Assembly: GCF_900155555.1 (NCBI RefSeq)
Contig: NZ_FUHN01000007.1
Location: forward strand, 303,912-367,911
From: Mobilibacterium timonense
GTDB lineage: Bacteria; Bacillota; Clostridia; Peptostreptococcales; Anaerovoracaceae
Direction: 5' to 3'
DNA length: 64,000 nucleotides
Shown here: in pieces, positions 27,680-53,534 of the stretch
How the letters are laid out: each line of letters opens with the position of its first letter
Numbering within the stretch: the first letter of the stretch is position 1
Position numbers and translations under genes: made by a program
The notes under the pieces: model-generated
The model's input: the letters and a program-made list of their open reading frames with translations, nothing else
Told to the model about the DNA's origin: nothing
Databases searched by the model: none

Positions 27680-30600
27680 ATGGCAGAAAACAAGAAACCA
27701 AACTCAAATAACATAAACGGCAAGAGACCCGCTTCTTCCACCCCTGCCAGCGACGACGCGCGCAAACAGAAGGAGATGCAGGCTCTGGCAAGAGCAATGG
27801 CGAGAAAGCGTCTCCGCGAACAGCAGGAGGCGGCTGCCAGGAAAACTTCTGCTGCGACATCATCCGACCATTCTCAGGGAAGCAAAAGGAGCCAGGCAGG
27901 CCCGGGCACCACTGAGGAAATTTCCAGGGAAATAGCGCAGGCTCAGAAGTCCCAGGCTCAAAAGCAGCAGGAGATGCGTGAACTGGCCCAGGCCATGGCC
28001 CGCATGAAGCTGAAACAGGACAGGGAGCAGGCCGGTGTCAGTCCTGCCGCTCAGGCCGGCAGCGATCACGCCGCACATACCGGGATCTCAGAGAGCGCCC
28101 ATGCTGCCCGGACCACTGCTGCAAGCAAGTCCGCTGCAACTCAGCAACCACATCACCAGTCCAGAGTGGAAAGGCACATGGCCGAGAGCGCTGCACGTCA
28201 TAATACAGCAAGGCCACAGTCGCGGGTCCAGGCACCACAGTTCGCAGAACCATCCCTTCCGCTTTCTGACAGCCCTGATGACGATGATTTCCTGAAGCGT
28301 ATCGATGCTCAGCTCAGCGGTCAGGATCCTGAAGAAAAAGGACACAGGATAAAGCGGCACCTTCACCACAGATCTGAGGAGGCCACAGGTACTAAGGCAG
28401 CGGCTGAGAAGCATCCTAAACTAGAGGTTGCAAAGGAAAAACTGAAGCATCCGAAGGAGACCCTGATAGAGCTGTTCACCAGGGAGAACCCTGCCTACGA
28501 CCCGGACGGTGGAGATACCGTCACACTGAACGGCAAGAGCGTCAAGAACCGCCCTCGCCTCTTCAGCGTGAAGAAGACTGTTCGAAATGCCTTCGCTGTG
28601 GTCGGAGCAATGATAGTGATCTTTATCTTCTCCGCTGTGCTGATCATTGCCACCGCCCCGAAGATCGATCCGTCAAATATATATGACCAGATCTCACAGT
28701 CCTCAGTGATCTACGATCAGGACGGTAACGAGATCGATACCGTGAGCTACGGCCAGGACAGGACCATCATCAAATACAGTGACCTTAACAAGCAGACGGT
28801 CGACGCATTCGTGGCGCTGGAAGATAAGACGTTCTGGACGCATCACGGCTTCAACTGGACCAGAATGGCAGGAGCTGTTCTCCAGTCCTTCACCGGAGGC
28901 GGGATCAGCGGGACCAGCACGATCACCCAGCAGCTGGCGAGGAACGTCTACCTCCCAGAGATCAAGAGCCAGCGAAGCCTCAAGCGTAAGATCATCGAGA
29001 TGTACTATGCTCACGAGATAGAAAAGACTCTTTCCAAGAAAGAGATAGTTACCGCGTACCTGAACAGCATCTACTTCGGTTTCGGAAACTACGGCATAGA
29101 AGACGCCTCGGAGACCTATTTTTCCAAGCACGCAAAGGATCTCACCCTCGAGGAGAGCGCAGCGCTCGCCGCCCTCCCTCAGTCACCGGATTCCTATGCT
29201 TTCCTGGTGCCTCAGGACACGGCGACCGTCGACGGCACTGTGATAACCGTAAATGGAAACAACTACGTGGTGAACGATATATCCAAGTCGAGGCGCGACA
29301 TCTGCCTCGATTTGATGAAGGATCAGGGGTACATCACCAAGAGCGAGCATGATGAAGCATATGGAAAGGATCTTTCCTCCTTTATCAACCCGACGATCGC
29401 GGAGTCAGACGACAACGCTTCGTACTTCACGGACTTCGTCATAAGCCAGGTGATCTCCGACCTTCAAGACGAATACAACATGAGCTACAAGCGGGCTCAG
29501 GACCTGGTCTATGCAGGCGGACTGAAGATACACACCACCATGGACGAGACGGCTCAGGATGTCATCGAGAAGGAGTTCGAGGACAACTCGAACTTCCCTG
29601 GACTCACCAACCTGCAGAAGGACGGAAACAACAACATCGTTTCCGATTCGGGCTCCATCATCCTCTACGATTACGCGAACATGATCACTGACGGAAAGTT
29701 CGTGTTCCAGGATGGCGAGTACAAGCAGAAGAGCGACGGCTCCCTGGTGGTTTACAAGAACAAGAGGCTGAACATATACAAGACCAGCACCTCCAGCGGT
29801 ACTGACTACAGTCTGGAGTTCAAGTCCTCCTACGTCACCGAGGACGGGACGATCTACATCTATCCGGGCGGATACATAAACATCCCTGCTCAGTACAAGT
29901 CGCTGGACAAGAATGGCAATCTGGTGATCTCCGCTGAGTATATAAATAAGAACAGCGACATGTTCACCGAGGTGGACGGTCACCCGGCGTTTACGGAAAA
30001 GGCATATACCATGCAGGCGAAGGTCGTGCAGCCTCAGGCGGCGATGGTCATCACCGAGGTCGGCACCGGAGAATTGAAGGCAATGGTCGGCGGAAGAGGT
30101 GTGACAGGTTCAAACCTGTACAACAGAGCCACCAACACGAGGCAGCCTGGTTCCTCCATCAAGCCGATAGGCGTCTACAGCACGGCACTTCAGATGAGCA
30201 AGGAGGCCGAGAGCCAGGGCAAGACCTTCGATTTCAAGGACCCTGGTAACGACACGCAGGGTGCCGACGGATACGGCGATTATCTGACGGCCTCGTCCAT
30301 CATCAAGGATGAGCCGCTGACCTTCGACGGAAAGATATGGCCTAAGAACTCCTACAACGGCTTCAAGGGCAACGTCACCATGAGATACGCCCTCCAGCAG
30401 TCCATCAACACCGTAGCCGTAAAGCTCTACGAGCAGGAGGGATACAAGAACGTCGCCAACACGATCAAGAAATTCGGCATTTCATCGCTGGATCTCGATG
30501 AATCAACGGGAAGCAAGGACGCAGGTCCTGCTTCTCTGGCTCTGGGAGGTCTCTCCAACGGAGTTTCTCCTTACGAGATGGCAGAAGCGTATGCTACCTT

Positions 30601-31318
30601 CCCTAACAACGGTGTGCGAAAGGATACCATCTGCTATACCACCGTCGAGGACAGCAGCGGAGTTCTCCTTAAGTCAAAGTCAAAGTCACACACGGTTCTG
30701 GACAAAGGCGTAGCATGGATAATGACAGACATGCTGAAGTCGGTCGTATCTGACGGTATCGGAAGCAACGCCGCCATCAGCGGGGTACAGTCCGGTGGTA
30801 AGACGGGAACCACAGAGAATAACTATGATATCTGGTTCTGCGGATTCACTCCTAACTACTCCGCCGCGCTGTGGATAGGAACAGACGTGAACATCCAGCT
30901 CACATCTGCATCCGGAATGGCTGCAAGACTCTGGGGACGCATAATGAACCAGATCCCTGCCGCAAAGCAGGGCAAGTACAAGAGCATGCCGAGCAACGTG
31001 GTCAAATACCACGGCGAGTACTACACGAAGGGTACTGAGCCTACCAAATCACAACTGCAGACTATCGAGGAGACCCAGGAAGAAGAGACTACGCCTCAGG
31101 AGGTCCCTAAGAACGAGGAGAACAACTCCAGTGGCGAGAACACAGGTGATAACACCGGTGGTAATACTGGTGGTAACACTGGAGGCAATACCGGCGGAAA
31201 CACCGGTGGCAACACTGGTGGTAACACCGGCGGCAATACCGGCGGAAACACCGGTGGCAACACTGGTGGTAACACCGGCGGTAATACCGGTGGTGATAAT
31301 ACCAACACTACCGGATAA
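27680..31318 (+). CDS. Class A penicillin-binding protein with long cytosolic tail and NTGG-repeat C-terminus
   Basis: This 1,212-residue bifunctional peptidoglycan synthase is far longer than the usual 700-900. Residues 1-300 are a hydrophilic, Ala/Gln/Lys-rich cytosolic tail. It contains a duplicated helix motif, KQKEMQALARAMARKRL (29-45) and KQQEMRELAQAMARMKL (95-111). The single membrane helix lies near 304-327. The GT51 glycosyltransferase domain has EDKTFWTHHG at about 381 and STITQQLARN. In the transpeptidase domain the serine motif is S825-S-I-K, the second motif S908-I-N, and the third KTG at 1041. The last about 50 residues are NTGG repeats. A promoter and a strong terminator bracket it, so it is monocistronic. 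Confidence 0.97.
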   Translation: MAENKKPNSNNINGKRPASSTPASDDARKQKEMQALARAMARKRLREQQEAAARKTSAATSSDHSQGSKRSQAGPGTTEEISREIAQAQKSQAQKQQEMRELAQAMARMKLKQDREQAGVSPAAQAGSDHAAHTGISESAHAARTTAASKSAATQQPHHQSRVERHMAESAARHNTARPQSRVQAPQFAEPSLPLSDSPDDDDFLKRIDAQLSGQDPEEKGHRIKRHLHHRSEEATGTKAAAEKHPKLEVAKEKLKHPKETLIELFTRENPAYDPDGGDTVTLNGKSVKNRPRLFSVKKTVRNAFAVVGAMIVIFIFSAVLIIATAPKIDPSNIYDQISQSSVIYDQDGNEIDTVSYGQDRTIIKYSDLNKQTVDAFVALEDKTFWTHHGFNWTRMAGAVLQSFTGGGISGTSTITQQLARNVYLPEIKSQRSLKRKIIEMYYAHEIEKTLSKKEIVTAYLNSIYFGFGNYGIEDASETYFSKHAKDLTLEESAALAALPQSPDSYAFLVPQDTATVDGTVITVNGNNYVVNDISKSRRDICLDLMKDQGYITKSEHDEAYGKDLSSFINPTIAESDDNASYFTDFVISQVISDLQDEYNMSYKRAQDLVYAGGLKIHTTMDETAQDVIEKEFEDNSNFPGLTNLQKDGNNNIVSDSGSIILYDYANMITDGKFVFQDGEYKQKSDGSLVVYKNKRLNIYKTSTSSGTDYSLEFKSSYVTEDGTIYIYPGGYINIPAQYKSLDKNGNLVISAEYINKNSDMFTEVDGHPAFTEKAYTMQAKVVQPQAAMVITEVGTGELKAMVGGRGVTGSNLYNRATNTRQPGSSIKPIGVYSTALQMSKEAESQGKTFDFKDPGNDTQGADGYGDYLTASSIIKDEPLTFDGKIWPKNSYNGFKGNVTMRYALQQSINTVAVKLYEQEGYKNVANTIKKFGISSLDLDESTGSKDAGPASLALGGLSNGVSPYEMAEAYATFPNNGVRKDTICYTTVEDSSGVLLKSKSKSHTVLDKGVAWIMTDMLKSVVSDGIGSNAAISGVQSGGKTGTTENNYDIWFCGFTPNYSAALWIGTDVNIQLTSASGMAARLWGRIMNQIPAAKQGKYKSMPSNVVKYHGEYYTKGTEPTKSQLQTIEETQEEETTPQEVPKNEENNSSGENTGDNTGGNTGGNTGGNTGGNTGGNTGGNTGGNTGGNTGGNTGGNTGGNTGGDNTNTTG
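31151..31294 (+). repeat. Twelve tandem 12-bp units encoding NTGG
   Basis: Twelve in-frame units of AA(C/T)AC(C/T)GG(N)GG(N) code for (NTGG)12 at the PBP C-terminus. A higher-order 48-bp block of four units occurs at 31187-31234 and again at 31235-31282, differing only at the last base. This indicates recent duplication and likely length variation between strains. Confidence 0.95.
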
Positions 31319-33034: not shown

Positions 33035-34732
33035 CTAACCTGTTGTCGTAGAATCACCCGTGTCGCCGCTGTCGCCACCGTTATCCGTCTGAGGCTTGCC
33101 CTTGCTGACCTCGATGTCGATGGTAGTACCCTTGTCCAGCTGTGTATTAGCCGCGTACTGCTGCCACATAACGTAACCATTGCCGTAGACATTGGACTCG
33201 TCATATGTGATGTTTCCTACTGTGAATCCGGCGTTTGCAATAGCTGCCTTGGCCTGAGCGAGACTCATTCCCGTTACAGACGGTACTGTAGCCTTCTCCT
33301 TACCCTTTCCATCGGAGATCACGATGTTGACTCTGGATCCCTTGCTGGCATCTGCTCCGCCCTCAGGATCTTGTGACAGGATGGTTCCTGCGGCCTGTGT
33401 GGAAGTCTGTTCTTTTACCACGCCCAGCTTGTATCCGTATTTCTTGAGGTACTTCTCCACCTCATCGTAGTTCATTCCCACGACATTAGGTACGGTCCCG
33501 TCCTTGGAGCCCTTGCTCAGGTTGACCGTGATCGTACGGCCCCTCTTTGCCTCGGTCCCGGCACCCGGATCCTGATCTGCGACGTGATTCTTAGTCACGG
33601 AGTCGGAATACACGGAAGAGCCCTTCTCGATCTTGAATCCGGCATCTTCTGCTGCGGCCTTGGCCTCGGCATAAGTCATATTTGACAGATCTGGTACCGT
33701 CGTCTTCGCAGTGGTCAGGGCCTTCACTCCCAGCACCAGGAGTGGTATCAGACAGATAGCCGCAACAATTGCGATTATGCGTCTCTTTTTCTTCTGCTCA
33801 GGCGTGAGATGTCTCTTCTTTTTCTTTTTCTTCTTCTTGCCGGAGTCCTCTTCTTCCTCTTCCTGATCCTTGGTCTCCATCGCCTTGTTCAGGGCGCTCT
33901 CTCCGACCATCTTGGTCACGAACTCGATGTTGTCCAGCTCCTCGATGAGCTCATCGGCGCTTGAGTACCTGTTGGTCTGGAACTTGTCGGTACATTTCAT
34001 TATGCACCGCTCAAGAGCAGGAGGAATACCGCTGACAAACTCGCTCGGCGGGATGACGTCCTCGTTTATGTGTTTGAGAGCGACCGTCACCGGGTTGTCT
34101 CCGTCAAAAGGCACCCTGCCGGTGATCATCTCATACATCACGATACCCAGGGAATAGATATCGGATCTCTCGTCCACGTAATTTCCCCTTGCCTGCTCAG
34201 GCGAGAAATAGTGAATGGATCCTATCACCTTGCTTCCCGTGGAGAGGGTGGCGTCGTTCACGGCCTTTGCGATACCGAAATCCGCCAGCTTGGCCACACC
34301 GTCCTTGGTCATGAGAATGTTGTGAGGCTTTACATCTCTGTGGATTATCTTGTTCTTGTGGGCCACGCTCAGCGCGGATGCCACCTGACGGGCGATGTTG
34401 ATCACCGTCCTGTAGTCCATAGGAGCCTCCTCTGCGATGATATCGCTGAGAGGACGACCGTCCACGAGCTCCATTACGATATAGTTGATGTTACCTTCTT
34501 TTCCTACATCATAGACACCTACGATGTTAGGATGAGAAAGCTTTGCCGCGGCCTGGGATTCTCTCTTGAAATTCTCGACGAATACCTCGTCCTTCGTGAA
34601 TTCCGGCCGCAGTATCTTGATCGCGATATATCTGTTCAGTAGCTTGTCCTTGGCCTTGTACACAACCGCCATGCCGCCATCGCCTATCTTCTGGATAAGC
34701 TCATACCTGCCGGCCAAAAGTCTGCTGCTCAT
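33035..34732 (-). CDS. prkC: PASTA-domain Ser/Thr protein kinase (PrkC/Stk1 type)
   Basis: This 565-residue membrane kinase is thought to sense peptidoglycan fragments or lipid II. The kinase domain (about 8-270) has GDGGMAVVYKAKD, the catalytic HRDVKPHNIL and the metal-binding DFGIAKA, with a threonine-rich activation loop. A lysine-rich juxtamembrane stretch precedes one membrane helix (about 330-350). Three extracellular PASTA domains follow, each opening with a VP motif (TVPDL, TVPNVVG, TVPSVTG), and an unusual short Gly/Asp/Thr tail ends the protein. It overlaps functionally with prpC immediately upstream (stop and start one base apart). Confidence 0.97.
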   Translation of the reverse strand: MSSRLLAGRYELIQKIGDGGMAVVYKAKDKLLNRYIAIKILRPEFTKDEVFVENFKRESQAAAKLSHPNIVGVYDVGKEGNINYIVMELVDGRPLSDIIAEEAPMDYRTVINIARQVASALSVAHKNKIIHRDVKPHNILMTKDGVAKLADFGIAKAVNDATLSTGSKVIGSIHYFSPEQARGNYVDERSDIYSLGIVMYEMITGRVPFDGDNPVTVALKHINEDVIPPSEFVSGIPPALERCIMKCTDKFQTNRYSSADELIEELDNIEFVTKMVGESALNKAMETKDQEEEEEDSGKKKKKKKKRHLTPEQKKKRRIIAIVAAICLIPLLVLGVKALTTAKTTVPDLSNMTYAEAKAAAEDAGFKIEKGSSVYSDSVTKNHVADQDPGAGTEAKRGRTITVNLSKGSKDGTVPNVVGMNYDEVEKYLKKYGYKLGVVKEQTSTQAAGTILSQDPEGGADASKGSRVNIVISDGKGKEKATVPSVTGMSLAQAKAAIANAGFTVGNITYDESNVYGNGYVMWQQYAANTQLDKGTTIDIEVSKGKPQTDNGGDSGDTGDSTTTG

Positions 34733-51907: not shown

Positions 51908-51983
51908 TGGTGCCCAGACTCGGAATTGAACCAAGGACACTGTGATTTTCAGTCACATGCTCTACCAACTGAGCTATCTGGGC
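51908..51983 (-). tRNA. tRNA-Phe (GAA)
   Basis: Full cloverleaf with 7-bp acceptor GCCCAGA/TCTGGGC, anticodon loop CTGAAAA, GGTTCAATTCC T-arm and encoded CCA. It is the last gene of the cluster in transcription order. Confidence 0.97.
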
Positions 51984-52002
51984 ATAACGTATTCAATAAT
52001 AA

Positions 52003-52079
52003 TGGTGGGCCATCGGGGACTTGAACCCAGGACCTGCCGGTTATGAGCCGGATGCTCTGACCAACTGAGCTAATGGCCC
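52003..52079 (-). tRNA. tRNA-Met (CAT), elongator type
   Basis: Acceptor GGGCCAT/ATGGCCC, loop CTCATAA, encoded CCA. The paired first acceptor base excludes the initiator. A lysidine-modified tRNA-Ile2 with the same anticodon cannot be fully excluded by eye. Confidence 0.9.
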
Positions 52080-52092
52080 ACTTTAGAAATTT

Positions 52093-52169
52093 TGGTCGGG
52101 GTGGCAGGATTTGAACCCGCGGCCCACTGGTCCCAAACCAGTTGCGCTACCAAGCTGCGCTACACCCCG
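52093..52169 (-). tRNA. tRNA-Pro (TGG), copy 1
   Basis: Acceptor CGGGGTG/CACCCCG, loop TTTGGGA, encoded CCA. Identical over its 77 bases to the copy at 52306-52382. Confidence 0.97.
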
Positions 52170-52201
52170 TCAAGCTCTGTATGATCTTTTTTAAAAAAAC
52201 A

Positions 52202-52278
52202 TGGTCGGAGTGGCAGGATTCGAACCTGCGACCCACTGATCCCGAACCAGTTGCGCTACCGGACTGCGCTACACCCCG
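52202..52278 (-). tRNA. tRNA-Pro (CGG)
   Basis: Acceptor CGGGGTG/CACTCCG with one G-U pair, loop TTCGGGA, encoded CCA. Similar to the flanking Pro(TGG) genes, suggesting local duplication and anticodon change. Confidence 0.96.
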
Positions 52279-52305
52279 ATGACACATGTTTTTACTATTT
52301 AAGAA

Positions 52306-52382
52306 TGGTCGGGGTGGCAGGATTTGAACCCGCGGCCCACTGGTCCCAAACCAGTTGCGCTACCAAGCTGCGCTACACCCCG
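52306..52382 (-). tRNA. tRNA-Pro (TGG), copy 2
   Basis: Exact duplicate of the gene at 52093-52169, loop TTTGGGA, encoded CCA. Confidence 0.97.
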
Positions 52383-52385
52383 TTA

Positions 52386-52461
52386 TGGCAGGGGCAGTAG
52401 GATTTGAACCCACGGCACGCGGTTTTGGAGACCGCTGCTCTACCAACTGAGCTATACCCCT
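52386..52461 (-). tRNA. tRNA-Trp (CCA)
   Basis: Acceptor AGGGGTA/TGCCCCT, discriminator G, loop CTCCAAA, encoded CCA. Confidence 0.97.
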
Positions 52462-52467
52462 ATCGAT

Positions 52468-52560
52468 TGGCGGAGAAGATGGGATTCGAACCCATGCGGC
52501 CCTAAATCGAACCCTAACGGTTTAGCAAACCGTCCTCTTCAGCCTCTTGAGTACTTCTCC
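52468..52560 (-). tRNA. tRNA-Ser (GCT)
   Basis: Acceptor GGAGAAG/CTTCTCC, loop TTGCTAA, long class II variable arm, discriminator G, encoded CCA. Confidence 0.97.
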
Positions 52561-52573
52561 ACAGTGTCTCTTA

Positions 52574-52662
<89 letters not shown>

Positions 52663-52675
52663 GAATATTAATGAT

Positions 52676-52751
52676 TGGTGACCCATCGGAGATTCGAACT
52701 CCGGACACCTTGATTAAAAGTCAAGTGCTCTGCCACCTGAGCTAATGGGTC
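52676..52751 (-). tRNA. tRNA-Lys (TTT)
   Basis: Acceptor GACCCAT/ATGGGTC, loop CTTTTAA, encoded CCA. Confidence 0.97.
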
Positions 52752-52756
52752 ATAAA

Positions 52757-52832
52757 TGGCTGGGGTAGCAGGACTCGAACCTACGAATAACGGAGTCAAA
52801 GTCCGTTGCCTTAACCACTTGGCTATACCCCA
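52757..52832 (-). tRNA. tRNA-Gln (TTG)
   Basis: Acceptor TGGGGTA/TACCCCA, discriminator G, loop CTTTGAC, encoded CCA. Confidence 0.97.
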
Positions 52833-52869
52833 TTATCAAGGCCGGCTGCATCCTCTTCTCTTATAAAAT

Positions 52870-52946
52870 TGGTGAGCCCACAGGGATTCGAACCCCGGAC
52901 ACACGGCTTAGAAGGCCGTTGCTCTATCCAACTGAGCTATGGGCCC
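52870..52946 (-). tRNA. tRNA-Arg (TCT)
   Basis: Acceptor GGGCCCA/TGGGCTC with one G-U pair, loop CTTCTAA, encoded CCA. Confidence 0.97.
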
Positions 52947-52980
52947 ACATGCCATACGAAAGACTCTTTTTACAGAAAAC

Positions 52981-52995
52981 GCCGACCTAGTCGGC
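52981..52995 (-). terminator. Internal hairpin in the tRNA cluster
   Basis: A GCCGAC/GTCGGC stem with a 3-base loop is followed on the minus strand by GTTTTCT. Outer arms CCATACGAA/TTCGTATGG lie in the same spacer. It may be a processing signal or a partial terminator between tRNA-Gly(TCC) and tRNA-Arg. Confidence 0.4.
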
Positions 52996-53018
52996 GGCTT
53001 CGTATGGATTTGTAATTG

Positions 53019-53092
53019 TGGAGCAGATGGCGGGAATCGAACCCGCGGCTTCAGCTTGGAAGGCTGAGGTATTACCATTATACGACATCTGC
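53019..53092 (-). tRNA. tRNA-Gly (TCC)
   Basis: Acceptor GCAGATG/CATCTGC, discriminator T, loop CTTCCAA, encoded CCA. Confidence 0.97.
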
Positions 53093-53097
53093 ATATT

Positions 53098-53172
53098 TGG
53101 AGCGGAAGACGAGATTCGAACTCGCGACCCTCGCCTTGGCAAGGCGATGCTCTACCCCTGAGCCACTTCCGC
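53098..53172 (-). tRNA. tRNA-Gly (GCC)
   Basis: Acceptor GCGGAAG/CTTCCGC, discriminator T, loop TTGCCAA, encoded CCA. Confidence 0.97.
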
Positions 53173-53175
53173 ATA

Positions 53176-53260
53176 TGGTCGAGGGAGATGGATTCGAACC
53201 ATCGAAAGCACAGCTAACGGATTTACAGTCCGCCCCCTTTGGCCACTCGGGAATCCCTCG
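53176..53260 (-). tRNA. tRNA-Tyr (GTA)
   Basis: Acceptor CGAGGGA/TCCCTCG, loop CTGTAAA, long class II variable arm, encoded CCA. The GUA anticodon is a queuosine target of Tgt. Confidence 0.97.
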
Positions 53261-53266
53261 ATATAT

Positions 53267-53341
53267 TGGAGCTGATGGAGGGAATCGAACCCCCAACCTG
53301 CTGATTACAAATCAGCTGCTCTACCGTTGAGCCACATCAGC
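53267..53341 (-). tRNA. tRNA-Thr (TGT)
   Basis: Acceptor GCTGATG/CATCAGC, discriminator T, loop TTTGTAA, encoded CCA. Confidence 0.97.
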
Positions 53342-53374
53342 AAAAGCTGACACATTCATCAGAATGTATCAAAT

Positions 53375-53451
53375 TGGCGACCGGGAACGGGCTCGAACCG
53401 TCGACCTCCAGCGTGACAGGCTGGCATTCTAACCAACTGAACTACCCGGCC
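53375..53451 (-). tRNA. tRNA-Asp (GTC)
   Basis: Acceptor GGCCGGG/CCCGGTC with one G-U pair, discriminator G, loop CTGTCAC, encoded CCA. Queuosine target. Confidence 0.97.
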
Positions 53452-53458
53452 ATAAATT

Positions 53459-53534
53459 TGGTGGGCGCTATAGGGCTCGAACCTATGACCCTCTGCTTGT
53501 AAGGCAGATGCTCTCCCAGCTGAGCTAAGCGCCC
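53459..53534 (-). tRNA. tRNA-Val (TAC)
   Basis: Acceptor GGGCGCT/AGCGCCC, loop CTTACAA, encoded CCA. It is the first gene of the cluster in transcription order. Confidence 0.97.

Follow-up and report, generated by a model that had tools for sequence, protein, structure and literature searches.

What does a class A penicillin-binding protein (PBP) do with a long cytosolic tail that carries the same helix twice? The window analyzed here, a stretch of 64,000 nucleotides from the 2.09 Mb genome of Mobilibacterium timonense, codes for such a protein, of 1212 aa. The preliminary description of this DNA gave it a cytosolic tail of 300 residues with the motif KQxEMxxLAxAMARxxL in two copies, and proposed that the helix binds a cytosolic partner. 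We have confirmed the layout: ~302 residues are found N-terminal of the transmembrane (TM) helix, and the motif lies exactly at residues 29-45 (KQKEMQALARAMARKRL) and 95-111 (KQQEMRELAQAMARMKL), both inside 27680-28580 on the forward strand. Class A PBPs carry the catalytic motifs EDxxF..H.G in the glycosyltransferase (GT) domain and SxxK and KTG in the transpeptidase (TP) domain. Here a single TM helix precedes both catalytic domains on one chain, the bifunctional class A arrangement (Table 1), and the sequence contains EDKTFWTHHG, PGSSIKP and KTGTT; EDKTFW-H-G, GSSIKP and KTGTT are invariant across the seven rows of our alignment A3. Most of these rows, except L005, also share Gly-rich C-termini. 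Besides, a conserved segment of ~130 residues is found between the GT and TP domains (PBP residues ~640-780, 29597-30019) and is perhaps an accessory domain.

Table 1. Features of the PBP gene, in positions of the window (aa, residues of the PBP)
Feature	Positions	Strand	Evidence
Class A PBP, clade A paralogue	27680..31318	+	Pfam Transgly + Transpeptidase; clade A UFBoot/SH-aLRT 100/99
E1 helix copy 1, aa 29-50	27764..27829	+	16/22 identical to B. intestinalis; AF2 helix 22-59
E1 helix copy 2, aa 91-114	27950..28021	+	19/24 identical to B. intestinalis; AF2 helix 77-117
Third conserved island LPLSxSPDDDDFLKRIDAQLSG, aa 193-214	28256..28321	+	21/22 identical, dN 0.04
Juxtamembrane conserved element, aa 262-302	28463..28585	+	31/41 identical to B. 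intestinalis, dN 0.21
Transmembrane helix, ~aa 303-325	28586..28654	+	Sequence; AF2 helix 297-325
Glycosyltransferase domain, aa 349-514	28724..29221	+	Pfam PF00912 (Transgly), E 1.2e-52
Transpeptidase domain, aa 874-1063	30299..30868	+	Pfam PF00905 (Transpeptidase), E 7.6e-25
Extracellular C-terminal NTGG repeats	31139..31294	+	~13 copies, 12-base unit

Class A PBPs of textbook species have short cytosolic tails, and for them the preliminary description was right to call the class short-tailed. The statement does not extend to this family, in which 34 of the 84 tails that we measured (from the earliest start codon of each frame to 75 residues before the ED..F motif of the glycosyltransferase) had at least 200 residues and nine at least 300, with a median of 170.5. 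Long tails being common in the family, the length of the window tail is by itself unremarkable. Its composition is rich in A, S, K, R, E and Q, and a Pfam search of the tail returned a single irrelevant match at E 0.06. The best 17-residue self-match within the 302 residues scored 53 (BLOSUM62), with starts at 26 and 92, i.e. an offset of 66 residues. Over 1000 shuffles of the tail the mean was 29.9 (sd 3.6) and the maximum 53, so that at least one shuffle equalled the observed score. A repeat of this quality is expected by chance about once in 1000, and conservation is the stronger evidence.

The closest orthologue, in Baileyella intestinalis, is 74% identical over the whole PBP and has kept both copies of the helix, which we call E1. 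Against this species dN was 0.18 for the first helix, 0.12 for the second and 0.04 for the third island, compared to 0.088 for the TM helix plus glycosyltransferase. The linkers gave 0.86, with 48 of 170 aligned positions identical and 23 of their 193 positions unaligned. Synonymous sites were near saturation throughout (pS 0.58-0.96), for which reason dN/dS ratios are not reported. The same contrast appears between Mogibacterium kristiansenii and the metagenome-assembled genome S25M, with dN of 0.10 in the helix and 0.61 in the linkers. The islands of the tail are under purifying selection, with dN values ~5-20 times below those of the linkers in two species pairs.

Outside the PBP no further E1 was found in M. 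timonense, where the best third match (E 0.66) crossed a stop codon. With a first profile (A1), strong matches were confined to PBPs of four of the 349 family genomes, three of which (M. timonense, B. intestinalis and M. kristiansenii) had supplied its rows; nine more genomes, at E 0.01-0.08, were at chance level. Divergent copies in named relatives were then recognised by eye and added to make profile A4, with which eight of the 349 genomes had a match at E 8.5e-6 or below, each in a frame 1089-1227 residues long, and five others matched weakly (E 0.004-0.043). Since six of the eight had supplied rows of A4, the new finds are only G255 and G256 (M. pumilum). We have compared this distribution with the phylogeny of the PBPs, taking as named relatives the best 80 of 216. 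In a tree of 82 catalytic parts, the window protein falls in a clade A of six rows, and a clade B has 36. A careful tree of 25 gave clade A eight rows with 100/99 (UFBoot/SH-aLRT) and clade B twelve with 98/98. Among the best 80 of 216 relatives, all six clade A tails, which were chosen blind to the motif, carry E1. The E1-guided finds G255 and G256 fall in clade A as well, making eight clade A PBPs with E1, and in the sequences examined E1 is restricted to this clade. As the relatives are the best 80 of 216, clade A may include further PBPs that lack E1.

Two copies of E1 are found in the window species, B. intestinalis and CO.O62, and one in the other five clade A PBPs, M. kristiansenii, S25M and oral Mogibacterium among them. 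As the copy number varies between one and two, the duplication is not essential. Aligned by eye, the copies follow the pattern [ML]-[RQ]-x-[LVY]-A-x-x-mostly hydrophobic-A-x-x-mostly R/K-[LMF]. Ala37 and Ala41 are invariant in all 11 copies of the eight proteins (two of which, G255 and G256, were discovered via the motif itself), and the window PBP carries E1 with both alanines, by which we define the clade A E1 tail. A single Thr in one of the 11 cores is the only Ser or Thr there, and none is conserved.

In bits the likeness across the clade is weak. With a model made from the E1 copies of CO.O62 and oral Mogibacterium, the remaining four clade A tails were the top non-members among the 82 tails, scoring 9.2, 8.5, 7.0 and 2.4 bits, when the best of 1640 shuffles reached 9.2, 5.6 and 4.6 bits. 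The same model gave copy 1 of the window only 0.8 bits, under an unrelated tail (L166, 1.9). With the reverse model M. timidum (5.3) and M. pumilum (2.9) were the best non-members, the best shuffle scoring 3.9, and neither CO.O62 nor G255 was in its top 18 matches. The scores being low, homology of E1 across clade A appears probable on account of its rank, its position and the common pattern. The clade A tails of oral Mogibacterium (L103, L223, L224) have a different repeat as well, two copies of FHEQVAKAEA or of a sequence close to it, and the CO.O62 tail (L104) has one related copy. We also considered the FHEQVxKAE repeats of oral Mogibacterium as kin of the third island, a relation that the model scores did not show.

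M. timonense has a second, clade B paralogue (L033 on contig C3, near recG) with a tail of 167 aa. It is 55% identical to the window PBP over the whole length and has the juxtamembrane element in common with it, as seen in the alignment, but it has no E1 match and carries DIDEFLSKFD near its N-terminus. Tails of this type have EIDDFLxxF near residue 14, and we have examined the peptide with a profile from which the window protein and its orthologue were excluded, on 82 of the 84 tails (L161 and L174, with fewer than 20 residues, were left out) and 4100 shuffles; rows of the profile came from at least four of the tested tails (the M. timonense clade B tail, L105, L106 and L178). The best shuffle was beaten in 45 of the 82 tails. 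In 44 of these the match begins at residues 12-33, and in one at 58, regardless of tail length. Of the 36 clade B tails 35 passed (for L124, EIDDFLSSF at 7.9 bits), and none of the eight clade A tails did, the window tail reaching 0.2 bits at best. Clade A and clade B paralogues thus differ in the signals of their tails. Profile A2, in which the window protein was included, matched 89 of 349 genomes in 35 of 92 genera at E 0.01, in frames that are putative PBPs. We also considered the third island (DDDDFLKRIDAQL) as an inward-shifted copy of the clade B peptide, which was not supported: it obtained 0.2 bits once the rows of the window protein and its orthologue had been left out. Three clade B tails (L130, L126 and L150) reach 425-485 residues, with long acidic or Lys-rich stretches, and each keeps EIDDFLxxF at residue 13 or 14. 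The M. timonense FtsZ ends in FDVPDFLK and its DivIVA contains EVDEFL; for EIDDFL as a mimic of either, the likeness covers six residues and concerns clade B, not the window protein, and we keep this reading only for the bolder picture given below. The pattern [DE][IVL]x[DES]F[LF] had no occurrence in the 30,408 residues of window open frames longer than 150 residues.

The gene neighborhoods of the two clades differ too. By the signature patterns that we take to mark comEC and recG, comEC adjoins six of eight clade A genes and 28 of the 40 family genes that belong to neither clade, and it adjoins no gene among the 36 of clade B. No clade A gene has recG nearby; in clade B, 19 of the 36 genes do, counted as the M. 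timonense gene and 18 of 35 loci. Clade A is not always beside comEC, whose signature was not seen at the M. kristiansenii gene or in S25M, where the contig has 4.3 kb. The PBP is followed by rpe and rsgA in the window species, in B. intestinalis and in several outgroups, and relatives belonging to neither clade have comEC upstream of it as well. The simplest history that we infer is one in which the gene duplicated and the clade A copy, at the old comEC locus, acquired E1 and was left without EIDDFLxxF.

AlphaFold2 (AF2) was run on six tails. In the window tail both E1 copies lie within long predicted helices (Table 1), with pLDDT of 91 at aa 31-50 and 83-89 at aa 91-110. A weak short helix is predicted at aa 199-212, in the third island (pLDDT ~62 at aa 201-210), and strands at 280-283, 286-289 and 293-295 in the juxtamembrane element; confidence is low at aa 61-74 and 127-198. 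With a mean pLDDT of 61 and a pTM of 0.22 the helices have no confident relative placement. The tail is largely disordered by prediction and yet has strongly conserved islands, which is not the low-complexity tail without conservation that the preliminary description allowed for; neither was its other misgiving, absence of the motif from close orthologues, borne out. Compared with solved structures, profiles of E1 and EIDDFLxxF retrieved nothing convincing (best E 0.94 and 0.043, respectively). A helix that is predicted with confidence and keeps small residues invariant along one face would favour protein binding, and invariant Ala37 and Ala41 are what is expected for close helix-helix packing. 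Our preferred reading, to which we give a probability of roughly 0.55, is that the tail is a disordered docking arm and that E1 recruits the PBP to a cytosolic scaffold. The arm would bear the tandem amphipathic E1, the third short conserved segment and the juxtamembrane element; E1 would pack as a helix against the scaffold protein, two copies per chain would raise avidity, and the clade A paralogue would be recruited to, or retained at, a site of wall growth that differs in place or regulation from that of clade B.

The packing partner might also be E1 itself, forming a coiled coil that oligomerises the PBP or pairing its two copies without any foreign partner. The long predicted helices, separated by a low-confidence linker, together with the heptad-like spacing and the invariant alanines, which suit helix-helix packing, agree with this reading, but one-copy species exist, so intramolecular pairing is not general, and AF2 places the helices in no confident relation to each other. 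We regard self-association as unlikely, though less so than the readings that follow. E1 could otherwise be an amphipathic helix resting on the membrane surface, with the tail stretched out along it. The HeliQuest-type discrimination factor is calculated by a formula whose threshold is ~1.3, and the best windows of six E1 copies gave 1.2-2.2. This is in favor of membrane binding, but the hydrophobic moment is only ~0.2-0.4, the mean hydrophobicity is near zero or negative, and invariant alanines are unnecessary for such a role, which makes it a doubtful explanation. We give slightly less credit to a regulatory role, in which the tail would be a platform for phosphorylation by the PASTA kinase whose gene lies ~2 kb downstream of the PBP (33035-34732), along the lines of mycobacterial PonA1, whose phosphorylated cytoplasmic tail slows elongation (PMC4483258). 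The conserved serines in LPLSxSPDDDD could be its targets, but E1 cores have no conserved Ser or Thr, the comEC/rpe/rsgA order found also outside clades A and B leaves the neighborhood with little to tell, and nothing beyond gene proximity was seen to link the kinase to the tail. Finally, a neutrally drifting low-complexity tail with a fortuitous Ala/Lys/Arg/Glu-rich repeat would suit the composition, the weakly constrained linkers and the shuffle scores, but is very improbable in view of the low island dN in two species pairs and the recurrence of E1 throughout clade A.

Returning to the docking arm, which scaffold could E1 bind? The helix of the preliminary description stands, conserved and predicted; two of the partners named for it fare worse. 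Strong MreB matches were found in three of seven family genomes examined, all draft assemblies, and were missing in M. timonense, B. intestinalis, M. kristiansenii and G005. These four gave weak matches of at most 72 bits, in frames of 630-668 residues (282 in G005), which we took for putative Hsp70. The M. timonense genome is 90% complete, and the absence of MreB is concordant across three related drafts. MreB is thus an unlikely partner, with no strong match in M. timonense, B. intestinalis or M. kristiansenii. A tie between the loss of MreB and long tails is not strict, since G005 combines a short PBP tail with the lack of a strong MreB match. B. intestinalis is described as a pig-gut species of short straight rods of ~1 um (PMC7738495), and the replacement name Allobaileyella has been proposed for the genus in 2026 (PMC12872784); the lineage without a strong MreB match hence includes short straight rods. 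As to GpsB, each of the seven genomes has one DivIVA-domain match (in M. timonense a frame of 250 residues) and in none was there a second one of GpsB type, though a very divergent GpsB could escape this search. The motif SRxxR(R/K), which GpsB-docking class A PBPs have near the membrane, is not conserved: exact occurrences are limited to two of 84 tails, those of B. intestinalis (SRHSRR, residue 220) and L176. In the window tail nothing closer to it than SRVERH occurs, at 161 and thus ~137 residues away from the membrane, and in the alignment with B. intestinalis a gap takes in most of these letters. On both counts the GpsB candidate is left unsupported.

FtsZ is present in all seven genomes, and M. 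timonense has both ftsZ and a DivIVA gene, so either product is a possible partner of E1. The M. timonense genome contains two SEDS genes, one 3 kb from ftsZ and the other an FHA-SEDS fusion whose neighbor encodes a transpeptidase domain (locus L071, 3078-9454, contig C1); glutamyl/glutaminyl-tRNA-synthetase-like and Mur-ligase-like genes follow this pair. We infer that neither SEDS gene is RodA and that canonical RodA is absent. In a rod apparently without MreB and canonical RodA the scaffold would be that of the divisome or the pole (FtsZ-FtsA/SepF or DivIVA), which we consider more likely for E1 than the elongasome.

There are precedents for cytosolic docking by class A PBPs. Cytoplasmic mini-domains that bind GpsB are described in PBP1 of Bacillus subtilis, PBPA1 of Listeria monocytogenes and PBP2a of Streptococcus pneumoniae (PMC6335420). 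They resemble E1 as short cytosolic motifs, helical in B. subtilis, that link a class A PBP to a scaffold (PMC6335420). In contrast, the motif of the window is Ala-centred, repeated and ~190-275 residues from the membrane, in a system with neither a conserved SRxxR(R/K) nor a separate GpsB-type match. PonA1 shares the long cytosolic tail, but there the tail is described as unconserved and controlled by phosphorylation (PMC4483258), whereas that of the window protein has conserved repeated helices. PBP1 of Clostridioides difficile, also a class A PBP of Clostridia, is described with IDRs at both ends (PMC12539705), and the window protein too has a low-complexity C-terminus, the NTGG repeats. 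The N-terminal IDR of the C. difficile PBP1 is of 46 aa and dispensable (PMC12539705), against ~302 aa with conserved islands in the window tail, and its dispensability cautions that tails of this kind may do no more than tune localisation. As for the C. difficile type of divisome, defined by PBP1 in place of a functional FtsW/FtsI pair, M. timonense has two SEDS genes, one of them beside the transpeptidase-domain gene, read from sequence alone. E1 is a real, conserved and paralogue-specific element, best read as a docking helix, a new version of the known theme of cytosolic docking motifs in class A PBPs. Among the titles and abstract openings listed from the open-licence literature we found no description of the E1 tail motif or of Baileyella/Mogibacterium PBPs.

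A bolder picture, for which we would give little more than an outside chance, is that in these rods, apparently without MreB and canonical RodA, two class A PBPs direct wall growth through different tail signals, with clade B guided by EIDDFL, in the manner of the FtsZ C-terminus or DivIVA, and clade A by E1, in some species in tandem, on a scaffold; a swap of signals after the duplication would have sent the two synthases to different sites. If true, it would provide a natural pair of duplicated wall synthases with different tail signals in a lineage of short rods apparently without MreB, and the steering of class A PBPs without Rod complex or GpsB would become testable. E1 and EIDDFLxxF could serve as compact baits for scaffold hunting. 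Elsewhere in the window, 17 tRNA genes are clustered on the reverse strand at 51908-53534, three of them consecutive tRNA-Pro genes.
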